A stretch of DNA of 11,350 nucleotides from Candidatus Cloacimonadota bacterium. GTDB lineage: Bacteria > Cloacimonadota > Cloacimonadia > JGIOTU-2 > B8-G9. Each line of letters begins with the position of its first letter. Position 1 is the first letter of the stretch. The stretch lies in the NCBI GenBank assembly GCA_003647765.1, contig QMNM01000019.1, forward strand, positions 1 through 11,350, read 5' to 3'. The notes beneath the pieces are model-generated. The model was not told the DNA's origin. It made no database searches and worked only from the letters and a program-made list of their open reading frames with translations. Shown piece after piece: positions 5,406-11,350 of this stretch. The position numbers were made by a program, and so were the translations under genes.

Positions 5406-5720
5406 ATGCAAAAAAAACCGCAAGGAAAAATATTAGAAAATATTCGCGCGAGTAAAAAAGAGGAACGGGAAATATTAAAGATTACTCCAGGAGAAGTTGA
5501 ATATGGAGTTGATTATCAGAAGGGACCAGTTTACATATATTATGATTGGTGTAAAAAATGTGGTATTTGTGTAGCATTTTGTCCGACAAAGTGTCTTGCA
5601 AGTAAAAAAGATGGAACACCTTATGTAAAATATCCAGAGAAATGTACTCATTGTGAAAAATGTGATATGCTTTGCCCTGACTATGCTATTACTGGAGCGA
5701 TTAACCATAATTCTGATTAA
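5406..5720 (+). CDS. korD: 2-oxoacid:ferredoxin oxidoreductase delta (2x[4Fe-4S] ferredoxin) subunit
   Basis: This 104-residue subunit carries two [4Fe-4S] clusters that pass electrons between the TPP-containing core and external ferredoxin. The first cluster motif is C49-x2-C52-x2-C55-x3-C59-P and the second C80-x2-C83-x2-C86-x3-C90-P. They are preceded by an extension of about 40 charged residues. GAGGAAGAAG (5395-5404) sits just upstream of the ATG. The order korD-korA-korB-korC is the classic arrangement for 2-oxoglutarate (and related 2-oxoacid) ferredoxin oxidoreductases. It is probably co-transcribed with korA, 51 bases downstream. Confidence 0.92.
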   Translation: MQKKPQGKILENIRASKKEEREILKITPGEVEYGVDYQKGPVYIYYDWCKKCGICVAFCPTKCLASKKDGTPYVKYPEKCTHCEKCDMLCPDYAITGAINHNSD

Positions 5721-5771: not shown

Positions 5772-6926
5772 GTGAAAAAGAATGATGACAAAAAAGCTCC
5801 GCAATTATTGCAAGGGAATGAAGCGATTGCATTAGCTGCAATAGAGGCTAAAATTCGCTTTTTTGCGGGTTATCCTATTACACCTTCATCCGAAATAGCT
5901 GAGTTAATGTCTCGTGAATTGCCTAAATATGAAGGGAAATTTATTCAGATGGAAGATGAACTTTCCAGTATGGGTGCGATCATTGGAGCATCTATTGCTG
6001 GATTGAAATCAATGACTGCTACAAGCGGTCCTGGGTTCTCTTTAATGCAAGAAAATATTGGATTTGCTTGCATTGCCGAAGTACCCTGTTTAATTGTTAA
6101 TGTAATGCGTGGAGGCCCAAGTACAGGATTGCCAACCAGTCCTTCACAAGGGGATATAATGCAAGCCAGATGGGGAACTCATGGGGATCATTCTATAATA
6201 GCTCTCTATCCTGATTCTGTATTGGAAAGTTATGAACTTACTATTAGAGCAGTTAATCTATCGGAAAAATATCGCACACCTGTAATTCTATTATTAGACG
6301 AAGTTATTGCTCATATGAGAGAATCTGTTATTTTGCCACAAAAAGAAGAATTGAATATTATAGAAAGAGTAAAACCTGATATTCCTCCTGAATGGTATGT
6401 ACATTATAAAGATAGCCCTGACTACATAACACCTGTGGCTAATTTTGGTGAGGGCTATAGATTTCATATTACAAGTTTGGCTCATGATAAATATGGATTT
6501 CCTACACGAAAGATTGATGAAGTAAAAACAATGATGGACAGATTAAGAAATAAGATTTATGATAATTTATATGATATTATTCAAATTGAATCGTACAAAA
6601 TGCAGGATGCTGAAATTGCTATTTTTGCAGCTGGGGTTGTAGCAAGATCAGCTAAAGAAGCAGTCAGAATTGCGAGAAAACAAGGCATTAAAGTTGGACT
6701 TATAAGACCCTTAACTATCTGGCCATTTCCAGATTATGATGTACAAAGAATGCTAGAAAAATGTAAGGATATTATTATCGCAGAATTAAATCAGGGACAA
6801 TTATATCATGAAATTGAAAGAGTTTGGAGTGAACGAACCAAATCACGACTACATAAGCTACAACGATATGATGGACTTATTTTAAGTTCAGAGCAGATAT
6901 TATCTAAAATTGCGGAGGTAAAATAA
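5772..6926 (+). CDS. korA: 2-oxoglutarate:ferredoxin oxidoreductase alpha subunit
   Basis: The 384-residue alpha subunit forms the pyrimidine side of the TPP site and binds the 2-oxoacid. The pyrimidine-binding domain shows LQGNEAIALAAIEA, AGYPITPSSEIAE (32-44), QMEDELSSMGAIIGAS and TATSGPGFSLMQE. GGPSTGLPTSPSQGD and ARWGTHGDH follow, and then the C-terminal domain with VGLIRPLTIWPFP. The start is the GTG at 5772, with GGAGG (5761-5765) six bases upstream; the nearby ATGs at 5782 and 5785 are out of frame. The gene abuts korB with no spacer, and the korB ribosome binding site lies inside its 3' end. The substrate is taken as 2-oxoglutarate from gene order and the attached methylmalonyl-CoA epimerase. 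Branched-chain 2-oxoacid (Vor) or 2-oxobutyrate activity cannot be excluded from sequence alone. Confidence 0.92.
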   Translation: MKKNDDKKAPQLLQGNEAIALAAIEAKIRFFAGYPITPSSEIAELMSRELPKYEGKFIQMEDELSSMGAIIGASIAGLKSMTATSGPGFSLMQENIGFACIAEVPCLIVNVMRGGPSTGLPTSPSQGDIMQARWGTHGDHSIIALYPDSVLESYELTIRAVNLSEKYRTPVILLLDEVIAHMRESVILPQKEELNIIERVKPDIPPEWYVHYKDSPDYITPVANFGEGYRFHITSLAHDKYGFPTRKIDEVKTMMDRLRNKIYDNLYDIIQIESYKMQDAEIAIFAAGVVARSAKEAVRIARKQGIKVGLIRPLTIWPFPDYDVQRMLEKCKDIIIAELNQGQLYHEIERVWSERTKSRLHKLQRYDGLILSSEQILSKIAEVK

Positions 6927-7790
6927 ATGAGAGAACAGATACCTCAAAAGATAATCCATAAATATTTAAGACAAAAAAAACATTTTCCTCATGTCTGGTG
7001 TTCTGGCTGTGGAATTGGAATAGTGCTTGGTGATATTATTAGAGCGATTAATCTATTAGACATAAAGAAGGATGATATTGCAATGGTCTCTGGTATTGGA
7101 TGTTCAAGTAGAATGCCTGTTTATATAGATGTTAATACATTGCATACAACTCATGGTAGAGCAATTACATTTGCTACTGGAATAAAATTAGCGAAACCCA
7201 ATATGAAAGTAATTGTTATTACTGGTGATGGTGATGGTACTGCTATTGGTGGTAATCATTTTATTCATGCAGCTAGACGAAATATAGACCTCACTGTAAT
7301 CTTGATAAATAACAATATTTATGGAATGACAGGTGGACAGGCATCACCAACTACTCCTGTCGGTGATATTGCAACAACTGCCCCTTATGGAGTAATTGAA
7401 AGAAATTTTGATATTTGTGAACTTGCAATTGCAGCTGGTGCTAGCTTTGTAGCAAGAACCACTGCTTTTCATACTATAGAAGCCAAGAAAATTATTGCAA
7501 AAGCTATTAGTAAACAAGGACTTGCATTAGTAGAAATAATCACACAATGTCCTGTGATTTATGGACGATTCAACAAAAAAGGTTCTGCTGTTGATATGTT
7601 GAAATGGCAAAGAGATAATACTATCCCAGTTGAAAGTATTTCCAAAATGCCAGAAGAAAAGAAAAAAGGTAAAATTGTTCGTGGAATTCTAGTAAATAAA
7701 GACATTCCAGAATATACAAAAGAATATGAAAAACTTATTGAAAATGTAAGTAAGCCACAAAATTATACAAAAACACACAAAAAGATATAA
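6927..7790 (+). CDS. korB: 2-oxoglutarate:ferredoxin oxidoreductase beta (TPP-binding) subunit
   Basis: The 287-residue beta subunit binds the diphosphate of TPP and the cluster next to it. The TPP motif begins at G100-D-G-D-G and closes with the N128-N-N run in LINNNIYGMTGGQASPTTP. Likely [4Fe-4S] ligands by family are C25 and C28 (WCSGCG), C59 (GIGCSS) and C208 (TQCPV). The ATG at 6927 directly follows the korA stop, with GGAGG at 6914-6918, so translation is likely coupled. Residues 276-287 (KPQNYTKTHKKI) and the stop are encoded by an inverted copy of the dispersed TTTGTGGCT repeat, so the native C-terminus has been replaced or extended. A repeat-filled 149-base gap separates it from korC. 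Confidence 0.93.
   Translation: MREQIPQKIIHKYLRQKKHFPHVWCSGCGIGIVLGDIIRAINLLDIKKDDIAMVSGIGCSSRMPVYIDVNTLHTTHGRAITFATGIKLAKPNMKVIVITGDGDGTAIGGNHFIHAARRNIDLTVILINNNIYGMTGGQASPTTPVGDIATTAPYGVIERNFDICELAIAAGASFVARTTAFHTIEAKKIIAKAISKQGLALVEIITQCPVIYGRFNKKGSAVDMLKWQRDNTIPVESISKMPEEKKKGKIVRGILVNKDIPEYTKEYEKLIENVSKPQNYTKTHKKI
7752..7790 (-). repeat. Inverted copy of the TTTGTGGCT repeat forming the korB 3' end
   Basis: The reverse complement of this stretch reads as the same unit seen at 159-189, 3263-3293 and 4142-4173, with small differences. It is in frame with korB and provides the last 12 codons and the TAA. Confidence 0.75.
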
Positions 7791-7810
7791 CAATTATAAA
7801 GAAATTACAT

Positions 7811-7918
7811 TTAACCACAGAGTTCACAGAGAATAAAAATATATTCCAAGAAAGAATTTCCATTGTTAATAATTTGAGGAATTATATTTAGAAATTTCTC
7901 TGTGTTTTCTGTGGTTAA
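7811..7918. repeat. Inverted CACAGAG repeat pair between korB and korC
   Basis: The left arm 7811-7833 and right arm 7896-7918 are 23-nt inverted copies matching at 20 of 23 positions. They begin and end with TTAACCACAG / CTGTGGTTAA. The right arm ends two bases before the korC AGGAGG. The 62 bases between arms show nothing recognisable. The arrangement could form a long stem upstream of korC or be two independent repeat insertions. No T-tract is present. Confidence 0.75.
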
Positions 7919-7939
7919 AAAGGAGGTAGAAAAATAAAA

Positions 7940-8956
7940 ATGGATGAACATATTCAAGTAAGAATTAGTGGTACTGGTGGGCAGGGCATTATTTTAGCAG
8001 GTATAATTCTATCAGAATCAGCAATGTATGATGGTAAAGAAGTAGTTCAATCGCAAAGTTATGGACCAGAATCAAGAGGTGGATATAGCAGAACAGATAT
8101 AATTATCAGTAAAGAAACAATTTATAATCCACGAGCAGAAGTGCTTGATATTTTCCTTGCTCTTTCTCAGGAAGCTTATGATAAATATTGGAAAAATGTT
8201 AATGAAAATGGTATTATTATTTTTGATAGTAATAAAGTAATACAAAATAAGCCAATTCCAATTCAAAACTATGGACTGCCATTTACTGAAACAGCAATGG
8301 AAAATTTTGATACAGAATTAGTAGCTAATATTATTGCACTTGCAGCTTTATGCTATCTAACAAATACTGTAAAAATATCCTCTCTAAAAAAGGCAATTAC
8401 TGCAAAAGTGAAGCCACAATTCAATGAAATAAATTTAAAAGCATTAAATATTGGTATTAACATGGCAAAGGAATTAGAATTGCAAGAAGGCGGAACCAGT
8501 AAAGATAAAATTTGGCATAAATTGTCTGATAAAAAAGTTCCTACTGACAAATCAGGATTGAAATTTCAAAAAATTAGTCATATTGGTATTGCTGTTGAAA
8601 ATATTCAGGAAGCTATTGGATTGTATTCATTATTAGGATTTGAAATCTCAAATATTGAAGAGTTAAAAGAGTGGAAAATCAAAACTGCTTTTGTACATAT
8701 TGGTGAAAGCAGTTTAGAATTAATTCAACCAACACATAAAGATAGTACTATTCAGAAATTTCTTGATAAAAGAGGTCCTGGCATTCATCATATTGCTTTT
8801 GAAGTAGGTGATATAGAAGCAAAAATAAAGGATTTACAAGCAAAAGACATTATACTAATTGATAAAAAGCCAAGGATAGGTGCAGGTGGAACAAAGGTTG
8901 CATTTCTCCATCCAAAATCAACAGAAGGTGTTCTAATAGAAATTTGTCAGCATTAA
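7940..8956 (+). CDS. korC-mce: KorC gamma subunit fused to methylmalonyl-CoA epimerase
   Basis: Two complete domains share one 338-residue frame. Residues 1-178 are the gamma subunit of 2-oxoacid:ferredoxin oxidoreductase: RISGTGGQGIILAG at the N-terminus, QSQSYGPESRGGYSRTDI, then LVANIIALAAL. A polar linker of about 30 residues follows (179-208). Residues 209-338 are a glyoxalase/VOC-fold methylmalonyl-CoA epimerase: SHIGIAVENI, FLDKRGPGIHHIAFEV, RIGAGGTKVAFLHPKSTEGVLIEIC. Predicted metal ligands, by family alignment from memory, are H214, E260, H284 and E334, all present. Stand-alone relatives are about 180 and 135 residues, so neither part is truncated. No internal ribosome binding site or ATG marks a lost start at the junction. 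AGGAGG at 7921-7926 is 13 bases from the ATG, unusually far. The fusion links succinyl-CoA formation or use to methylmalonyl-CoA interconversion. Confidence 0.9.
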   Translation: MDEHIQVRISGTGGQGIILAGIILSESAMYDGKEVVQSQSYGPESRGGYSRTDIIISKETIYNPRAEVLDIFLALSQEAYDKYWKNVNENGIIIFDSNKVIQNKPIPIQNYGLPFTETAMENFDTELVANIIALAALCYLTNTVKISSLKKAITAKVKPQFNEINLKALNIGINMAKELELQEGGTSKDKIWHKLSDKKVPTDKSGLKFQKISHIGIAVENIQEAIGLYSLLGFEISNIEELKEWKIKTAFVHIGESSLELIQPTHKDSTIQKFLDKRGPGIHHIAFEVGDIEAKIKDLQAKDIILIDKKPRIGAGGTKVAFLHPKSTEGVLIEICQH

Positions 8957-9072: not shown

Positions 9073-10200
9073 TTATATACTTCTCAATAATCTTTCTGCT
9101 TCTTCTGCTGTAATCTTTCCATTTTCCAGCATATCTAATACTTTCTTTTTCAACTCAATATTTTCTTGCTTTTTGCTTTTGTCTCCCATATATTGAAACA
9201 TATCTCCGAATTTATCAAATACTTTATCTAATTTAAGATTAACCTTTCCTTTTGAAGAATGAACAAAATTTACAATATTTTCCTTCATATCTTTTATCTG
9301 CTCTTTAATCTGATTCCATTCTTCATCTTTAAATCTTTCACTCATATTCTTTATATCTTCTTCTAATCTAAGCATACTTTCTTTGATTGTTTCTCCAATC
9401 TTTTCTGTCTTATCCCAATATGCAGAAATTACTTTTACATCAATCCCTTCTGGTTTGTCAGTAGAAAACAGCTTAATGCCTCCAATATTATTGTCTATTC
9501 TAATTTTGACTTTACCATCTTTATTATGAATATAGATTTTCCCATCTTCCTTCTTGTATTCTTGGTCCAGGTTGATATGATAACTTCCAATTCTTGTTTG
9601 TCCACTAATATCATAAGGAAGCGAAGGTGGAATATAAAGAGTGATACTACCATTCTTATTCGTAAATTCAAAACTGCCTTGTTCCACATCCTTATTAAAA
9701 TGATACACAATACTTCCATTTCTATCGCCAATTATGCATTTGTTCAATAGAGAATTTTCAACTTTTATACTGCCATTTTTGTTGCTTACTATTGCTTCTC
9801 CACTTATATCTATCAGTTTTATACTGCCATTTTTATTAGCAAGTTCCATGTGCAAGTCCAAAGAATCAACTCTTATTCTACCATTTTTGTTATTTACTTT
9901 TAATCTTGAATGTGTTGGAATCTGACAATTAAGTTTGAGAGAATAGGAATGTAAAAAGAACTCATTTTTTAATTTGAATGGAAGTATCTCTACTTTCAGA
10001 TAATTGTTCTCTTCATCGTATTCTTTAATGATATACTCGGACAACTTGAACTCTTGTAGGTCTGTATTAGATTCTAATACAATATCAAAAGCAGTTTTTA
10101 ACCCATCTGATTTGGTAATATTAACAGAATTGTTTATGGATATAATCTCTATTTGTGGATTCTCTCTGACAACCTGTTCATATCTCATTTGTTGTTTCAT
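9073..10200 (-). CDS. DUF4097-type beta-repeat protein with C-terminal coiled coil and SHOCT-like helix pair
   Basis: The 375-residue protein has no signal peptide or membrane segment, so it is predicted cytoplasmic. Residues from about 15 to 240 resemble the DUF4097 (putative adhesin / DUF4098-like) beta-repeat family. The motif N-K/R-N-G-x-I recurs with Gly at 107, 125, 143, 162 and 184, spaced 18-22 residues, and a related NKDG lies at 226-229. Residues 265-325 are highly charged and helical, probably coiled coil. Residues 347-375 (LKKKVLDMLENGKITAEEAERLL) match the short helix pair seen in SHOCT-like and YvlB/LiaX N-terminal domains, here at the C-terminus. AGGAGA (plus-strand 10206-10211) precedes the ATG by five bases. 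Relatives are often tied to envelope stress modules; a function here is not established. The gene stands alone between two related palindromes. Confidence 0.8.
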   Translation of the reverse strand: MKQQMRYEQVVRENPQIEIISINNSVNITKSDGLKTAFDIVLESNTDLQEFKLSEYIIKEYDEENNYLKVEILPFKLKNEFFLHSYSLKLNCQIPTHSRLKVNNKNGRIRVDSLDLHMELANKNGSIKLIDISGEAIVSNKNGSIKVENSLLNKCIIGDRNGSIVYHFNKDVEQGSFEFTNKNGSITLYIPPSLPYDISGQTRIGSYHINLDQEYKKEDGKIYIHNKDGKVKIRIDNNIGGIKLFSTDKPEGIDVKVISAYWDKTEKIGETIKESMLRLEEDIKNMSERFKDEEWNQIKEQIKDMKENIVNFVHSSKGKVNLKLDKVFDKFGDMFQYMGDKSKKQENIELKKKVLDMLENGKITAEEAERLLRSI

Positions 10201-10323: not shown

Positions 10324-11350
10324 CTATTTTAATATAACACACTTTTTAGTGGCAGTAAAATCACCAGCAATAATACGATAGAAATAGATGCCTGAACCTT
10401 TGTCCTTTGCATCCCAGACAACAGAATGATAACCAGATTGCTGAACTTCATCAACAAGTGTTTGCACCAATTGACCTTTGATATTGTAAATGCTAAGTGA
10501 GACCTTACTGGATTTTGGAATAGTATATGAAATTGTCGTTTGTGGATTGAATGGATTAGGATGATTCTGATAAAGAGTGAGATTAGCAGGTTCCGGCTTT
10601 GGTATTATATGCTCATCAATATCAGTAATAATATGTGTACAGGTGAATACAACTTCTCTTGTTTCGCCTTGTGCTAATGGTGGTTGTCCCTGATACCAGA
10701 TATACATCAAAGCAAAATTATCTTTAACTACAGCTGCCATTGCATTTGTATAGATAATTTCAATATCCTCGGCTCTAAATGGTAGAATTATTGCAGGATG
10801 ACGCTCTCCCCATTTGCTTGTAAATCCAGGATTACCTTCTCTATTCATTGTTATCTTATATGTAACTGTATCCTTTTCAATTCCTTCATTTATCGTAAGT
10901 TCATTTGTGAATAATGGTTGCTGAAATACACCTTCATTAGACATTTTCACTTGCATTCCAGGGTCCCCATATAAAGCAGAACCATTCAAATCAGGTGGAT
11001 TCGCTCCGGGAGTTCCATTTATCATATCAAATTTAAGAGAATTATTAGCAAGGAAGAATGCTTCTGCCCAAGTGTAATTTCTTGCCACTCTATAGAAATA
11101 TGCCTTTGTTCCACCATGTTGATGAGAATGAGTTCCTTCTGTAATCACATAGCCAGTATATTGATATGCAGAACCAGTATGAATCCACGATGGTGCCATA
11201 CTACCACCACCCAGAATTTGACCAATGTTGCAGTTGCCAAGTCCAAAATATATCTTTGGATTATCAGAATCTATATTGATATCAGGTCCACTATACGGAT
11301 CTCCATATACCTGTCCATTACTGGAACGGAAATATCCTTCTGAACCAGAA
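10324..11350 (-). CDS. Secreted protein with C25/caspase-like tail and type IX sorting domain (5' end outside window)
   Basis: The frame is open to the window edge, so about 341 C-terminal residues are seen and the true start lies beyond 11350; the Met at 11199 is internal. The last 86 residues (10327-10584) are a classic FlgD-like type IX secretion sorting domain: YQNHPNPFNPQTTISY, SLSIYNIKGQLV, GYHSVVWDAKDKGSGIYFYRI. This implies export across the outer membrane. Upstream, LGNCNIGQ (Cys codon at 11230-11232), SMAPSWIHTGSAYQYTGY, WAEAFFLANN and YGDPGMQVKM resemble the C-terminal half of clan CD / gingipain-like C25 peptidases. In those, a Cys nucleophile is followed by a helix and a GDP motif. 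The catalytic His, if any, would be outside the window. A beta-sandwich-like segment links the two parts. The sorting domain is secure; the peptidase assignment is tentative. Confidence 0.85.
   Translation of the reverse strand, partial: SGSEGYFRSSNGQVYGDPYSGPDINIDSDNPKIYFGLGNCNIGQILGGGSMAPSWIHTGSAYQYTGYVITEGTHSHQHGGTKAYFYRVARNYTWAEAFFLANNSLKFDMINGTPGANPPDLNGSALYGDPGMQVKMSNEGVFQQPLFTNELTINEGIEKDTVTYKITMNREGNPGFTSKWGERHPAIILPFRAEDIEIIYTNAMAAVVKDNFALMYIWYQGQPPLAQGETREVVFTCTHIITDIDEHIIPKPEPANLTLYQNHPNPFNPQTTISYTIPKSSKVSLSIYNIKGQLVQTLVDEVQQSGYHSVVWDAKDKGSGIYFYRIIAGDFTATKKCVILK

Follow-up and report, generated by a model that had tools for sequence, protein, structure and literature searches.

In a MAG of Candidatus Cloacimonadota, we have identified one open reading frame of 338 codons (positions 7940-8956, plus strand, in the ORF listing) that encodes two complete proteins, the gamma subunit of 2-oxoacid:ferredoxin oxidoreductase (KorC) and methylmalonyl-CoA epimerase (MCE), joined by a linker of about 30 residues. 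Positions refer to the window, i.e. the whole stretch of 11,350 nucleotides that was analysed. Our joint reading, which we consider probable, is that this gene is a genuine, lineage-specific korC-mce fusion, and that its product would be a bifunctional gamma subunit serving a 2-oxoglutarate/propionyl-CoA route.

Two complete domains in one open reading frame

The N-terminal half (residues 1-178; 7940-8473, plus strand) corresponds to domain III of 2-oxoacid:ferredoxin oxidoreductases (OFORs). It matches the Pfam family POR (PF01558) over residues 13-173 (E 2e-34; 119.5 bits versus 27.4), covering positions 1-172 of the 173 in the profile, and scores 172 bits with the gamma subunit model PRK08537, under that model's cut-off of 235. 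A PDB sequence match was obtained with the OFOR gamma subunit 3on3 (E 4e-40), and Foldseek retrieved the same structure from the predicted model (TM(target) 0.92), together with OorC 3g2e and 8ys5_B. The KorC proteins of relatives end near residue 182 (median length 182). A polar linker (residues 179-207; 8474-8560, plus strand) follows the KorC half. It is for the most part without counterpart in 93 aligned relatives: almost every position of residues 189-210 is a gap in at least 91 of their 93 KorC proteins.

The C-terminal half (residues 208-338 plus stop; 8561-8956, plus strand) has the VOC fold of methylmalonyl-CoA epimerases. It matches Pfam Glyoxalase_4 over residues 214-322 (E 2e-23) and NCBIfam TIGR03081 over residues 211-337, where its 157 bits lie above the curated cut-off of 115. 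The PDB sequence matches include 3oa4 (E 2e-29) and human MCEE (E 3e-23), and the Foldseek search of the model gave the MCE-like 3oa4 as top match (E 2e-18), with the S. coelicolor MCE 6wfh also found (E 6.5e-16). Four residues, H214, E260, H284 and E334, are the predicted metal ligands; 93/93 relatives share the first three, and E334 is present in all 90 relatives that reach that position. At residue 245 (8672-8674), a tryptophan stands in place of the glutamine found in the MCEs of 93/93 relatives, a position occupied by histidine in human MCE.

The AlphaFold2 model of the full-length protein (mean pLDDT 90.9) consists of two confident domains separated by a stretch of the linker, residues 185-199, with pLDDT below 50. 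The pTM of 0.60 means that the mutual orientation of the halves is not fixed by the model. In the alignment behind it, the KorC C-termini of relatives were wrongly placed in the MCE half, and the model was still confident. The initial annotation, which described a full KorC and a full VOC-fold epimerase with four metal ligands sharing one frame across a linker of about 30 residues, is borne out by the agreement of profiles, model and ligands.

The genes directly upstream on the same strand complete a D-A-B-C set in the OorDABC order. The delta subunit gene korD (5406-5720, plus strand) encodes two [4Fe-4S] ferredoxin motifs (two PF00037 stretches, with CxxCxxCxxxC at residues 49 and 80), and its best match is the OorD model, below the cut-off. 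The alpha subunit gene korA (5772-6926, plus strand) gives 553 bits with PRK08659 (cut-off 411), carries YPITP at residue 34 and matches the structures 1yd7 (E 2e-111) and H. pylori OorA 8ys5_A (E 2e-84). The TPP-binding beta subunit gene korB (6927-7790, plus strand) has WCSGCG at residue 24, GDGDG at residue 100 and Cys residues like those of other OFOR beta subunits, and the closest solved structure is H. pylori OorB (8ys5_C, E 9e-78). Between korB and the fused gene lies a dispersed CACAGAG-type inverted repeat (7810-7919) with 24-nt arms that are 88% complementary; a search of the own genome with the arm motif gave 46 matches, and with the reversed control 0. Only one relative has a longer korB-korC distance than the 153 nt measured here between matches. 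Upstream of the kor genes are two fumarase genes, dapB and the gene for aspartate-semialdehyde dehydrogenase. On the minus strand downstream, 9073-10200 encodes a 375-residue protein in which 'NKNGSI'-like stretches recur and which has a SHOCT-like domain at its C-terminus. The gene at 10324-11349, cut by the contig end, encodes a protein of secreted type whose C-terminal domain is a Por secretion-system sorting domain.

Gene order among relatives and the probable origin of the fusion

A total of 124 genomes of the phylum were searched, and korC and mce were found together on one fetched stretch in 95 of them, the window genome included. Only the window genome has the fusion (1/95); in the other 94, korC and mce are separate genes on the same strand. 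The two are neighbours in nearly all of the 95 genomes; the gap between them, measurable in 93 relatives, has a median of 9 nt (within 50 nt in 78, overlapping in 20). Upstream, korA and korB accompany korC on the same strand at 80/80 testable loci, and a few relatives (L057, L082 and L085) have a long contig that carries korC but no mce close to it. In one inspected relative of the same order, the operon runs on into mmdA, the OAD gamma subunit gene oadG, a biotin carrier gene and oadB, and other relatives have ORFs of matching sizes and order downstream of mce; no mmd genes follow the fused gene within the window. Adjacent unfused korC-mce pairs of the kind envisaged in the initial annotation thus do exist within the phylum, and no second fusion turned up among the genomes searched. 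That annotation had rightly hesitated to call the fusion a standard architecture; the separate genes of the relatives lend no support to a conserved requirement for joining the two physically.

Several candidates for wider occurrence were rejected. A family-wide architecture was ruled out by the count of one in 95 comparable genomes. Full-length matches to the fusion came from 12 other genomes and were each interrupted by stop codons, and where the korC and mce matches of relatives appeared to share one open frame, a stop codon lies between each pair. No plasmid record covered 80% of the query, and a scan of genome contigs returned distant stand-alone gamma subunits only (33-37% identity). Phylogenetically, KorC groups with relatives of the same order (support 99/98); the branches of both domains are very long (1.57 and 1.48 changes per column), and the tree gives MCE no firm position.

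In 19 relatives, korC and mce share a reading frame that a single stop codon divides. Fusion is thus one substitution away, and loss of a stop codon is its likely origin. The ancestral state would have been a pair of neighbouring, probably co-translated korC and mce genes in the phylum's korDABC-mce operon; the korC stop codon would have been lost, and extra DNA would have become the flexible linker. The initial annotation had named close relatives with always separate genes as evidence against it, and this is the pattern observed; the ORF itself is not refuted by it, but the fusion becomes the event of one lineage.

The same comparison would also suit a sequence artefact, in which two adjacent genes arranged as in the relatives were joined because the MAG consensus contains a small erroneous indel. 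We regard this as unlikely, although it is the likeliest of the alternatives considered. All 94 comparable relatives are split, and the fusion is seen in one MAG (1.97 Mb, 88.8% complete, 360 contigs) with no genome of the same family in the comparison set. Additionally, a frame +2 stop at codon 187 would, given a hidden indel, end KorC at about its usual length, and TTG207 would start an MCE-like N-terminus, 'MKFQKISHIGIAV'. However, the only possible starts for a separate mce are ATG175, which lies inside the last helix of KorC, and TTG181, TTG195 and TTG207, none of these TTG codons having a well-spaced ribosome-binding site, whereas the relatives start with ATG or GTG. The linker has a coding-like codon-position GC (42/32/23%) and no stop over 31 codons, a run with a chance of about 0.13 in the local non-coding composition, and codons 178-187, where any frame-changing error would need to be located, contain no long homopolymers. 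A genuine fusion, which would be expressed as one chain, remains the preferred reading.

The probable oxidoreductase substrate and the proposed propionyl-CoA route

All four subunits fall below the cut-offs of the Oor equivalog models (bits/cut-off: A 419/579, B 316/364, C 96/216, D 42/93), KorA passing only the generic PRK08659 model without reaching the OorA equivalog cut-off. When aligned to the Sulfolobus enzyme StOFOR, KorA has Leu in place of D468a, as in the 2-oxoglutarate-specific KorAB of Hydrogenobacter, and KorB has Met in place of L123b and Arg in place of K49b. The arginine is common to OorB and the Magnetococcus enzyme (MmOGOR); in StOFOR, K49R favours pyruvate. Judged from sequence, 2-oxoglutarate is the likely substrate of KorDABC, and its assignment in the initial annotation fits both the match of KorB to OorB and the leucine in KorA. 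With KorA, KorB and KorD, the KorC half would then form a 2-oxoglutarate:ferredoxin oxidoreductase interconverting 2-oxoglutarate and succinyl-CoA, and the tethered MCE half would interconvert (S)- and (R)-methylmalonyl-CoA. The common route, in either direction, would connect 2-oxoglutarate, succinyl-CoA, methylmalonyl-CoA and propionyl-CoA, and its mutase and Na+-pumping decarboxylase would be proteins of their own.

The partner genes for this route are present in the own genome. One methylmalonyl-CoA mutase was found (G000:C2:24799-26334; 790 bits, and 848 bits with TIGR00641), its gene unlinked to the fused gene, as well as mmdA, oadB, which encodes the beta subunit of the Na+-pumping decarboxylase, and glutamate dehydrogenase. 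No second MCE above the cut-off was found in this genome; a weak VOC protein on contig C101 was rejected as a second stand-alone MCE at 22 bits. This gene content, with the fused MCE as the only one above the cut-off, supports the pathway inference. The initial annotation had tied the oxidoreductase to the methylmalonyl-CoA route and looked to mutase and decarboxylase genes as its partners; the genes found here and the conserved korDABC-mce order both agree with this.

Some features of these partner proteins were unusual in themselves. The mutases of the same order (12776-14437 of L159, G000:C2, in the own genome; also in G111 and G123) have about 555 residues versus 715-770 in other families of the phylum, and the missing C-terminal length is probably the B12 domain. 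Several relatives of the class have a second mutase match, which these three genomes lacked in the search. The oadB homologue of the own genome (OAD_beta; L168 2-1465, G000:C264) is extended at its N-terminus by about 130 residues, which include a hydrophobic leader and match CarboxypepD_reg weakly. The OAD_beta of an inspected relative (L131:2884-3996) is not extended in this way; the extension is possibly another unusual fusion. The own genome also has a succinate-CoA ligase beta subunit (L170 697-1875, G000:C312), a step reported missing in digester Cloacimonadota (PMC13082233).

Flux along the route may run from 2-oxoglutarate to propionyl-CoA, as in amino-acid fermentation, or in reverse, as in syntrophic propionate oxidation. 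The decarboxylating direction is the one favoured by what is established about the biochemistry of OFORs that reduce ferredoxin and of Na+-pumping decarboxylases. The reverse, syntrophic propionate oxidation, has been proposed for Cloacimonadota (PMC13082233).

Probable role of the fusion and relation to known systems

As the step of the mutase separates the two activities, one half cannot hand its product directly to the other, and a direct coupling of successive steps is doubtful. The fusion most likely serves to fix the stoichiometry of the two activities and to co-localise them. In Sulfolobus OFOR structures, domain III, the equivalent of KorC, is exposed as wings at the dimer ends (PMC5020499), and an added C-terminal domain should therefore be tolerated. 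The same exposure would leave room for a more elaborate arrangement, in which the KorC-MCE chain also scaffolds the mutase and CoA thioesters are channelled from the oxidoreductase through the mutase to MCE on one complex. A single step separates the two activities within one route, and korC-mce is the conserved neighbour pair; if such channelling did occur, the alternative propionate-oxidation route proposed for the phylum would be physically organised on one complex. However, neither half's product is the other half's substrate, the own genome encodes its mutase at an unlinked locus and no relative has the fusion, so we give this arrangement a low probability, slightly below that of the artefact. 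Finally, Trp245 in place of an otherwise invariant Gln and the long MCE branch might suggest a VOC domain that is degenerating or re-purposed and no longer epimerises methylmalonyl-CoA efficiently, but with all four metal ligands kept, a TIGR03081 score well above the cut-off, a histidine at the aligned position in human MCE and this being the sole MCE found in a genome with mutase, we consider that very improbable.

Returning to the preferred reading of a bifunctional gamma subunit, a gene fusion counts as evidence of the classical 'Rosetta stone' kind for two proteins acting together. The fusion backs a proposal previously based on gene order, namely that a 2-oxoglutarate:ferredoxin oxidoreductase takes part in methylmalonyl-CoA/propionate metabolism in this uncultured phylum, which is important in anaerobic digesters. 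It also provides a single expressible and assayable polypeptide for testing the link between oxidoreductase and propionate.

The closest described system is that of Cloacimonadota themselves, in which kor genes stand beside an mmc epimerase gene and KOR has been proposed to act in the propionate route (PMC13082233, 2026). Our literature search found no paper mentioning a KorC-MCE fusion, and the main text of PMC13082233 does not contain 'fusion' or 'fused'. The pathway idea has thus been published before, and within the reach of our search the fused architecture is new; it is a one-off variant of a described gene partnership and no new kind of system. Both arrangements place the kor genes directly beside mce and share the proposed succinyl-CoA/propionate route. 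However, korC and mce are there neighbours in one operon and here one gene, and here a repeat element separates the fused gene from korDAB. The OorDABC enzymes of Helicobacter and Campylobacter (8ys5, 3g2e) have the same D-A-B-C order and four-subunit make-up, whereas OorC is a stand-alone gamma subunit and the present one carries a C-terminal MCE and does not reach the Oor equivalog cut-offs. With the MCEs of TIGR03081 (3oa4-like, S. coelicolor 6wfh, human MCEE) the epimerase half shares fold, metal ligands and a score above the cut-off, and it differs from them in being the C-terminal domain of a KorC protein and in having Trp245 for the conserved Gln. In Sulfolobus StOFOR and Magnetococcus OGOR, domain III is fused to the alpha subunit, so the gamma domain is known to join gene fusions; those enzymes, however, fuse OFOR domains together, whereas here the gamma domain is fused to the enzyme of another step.
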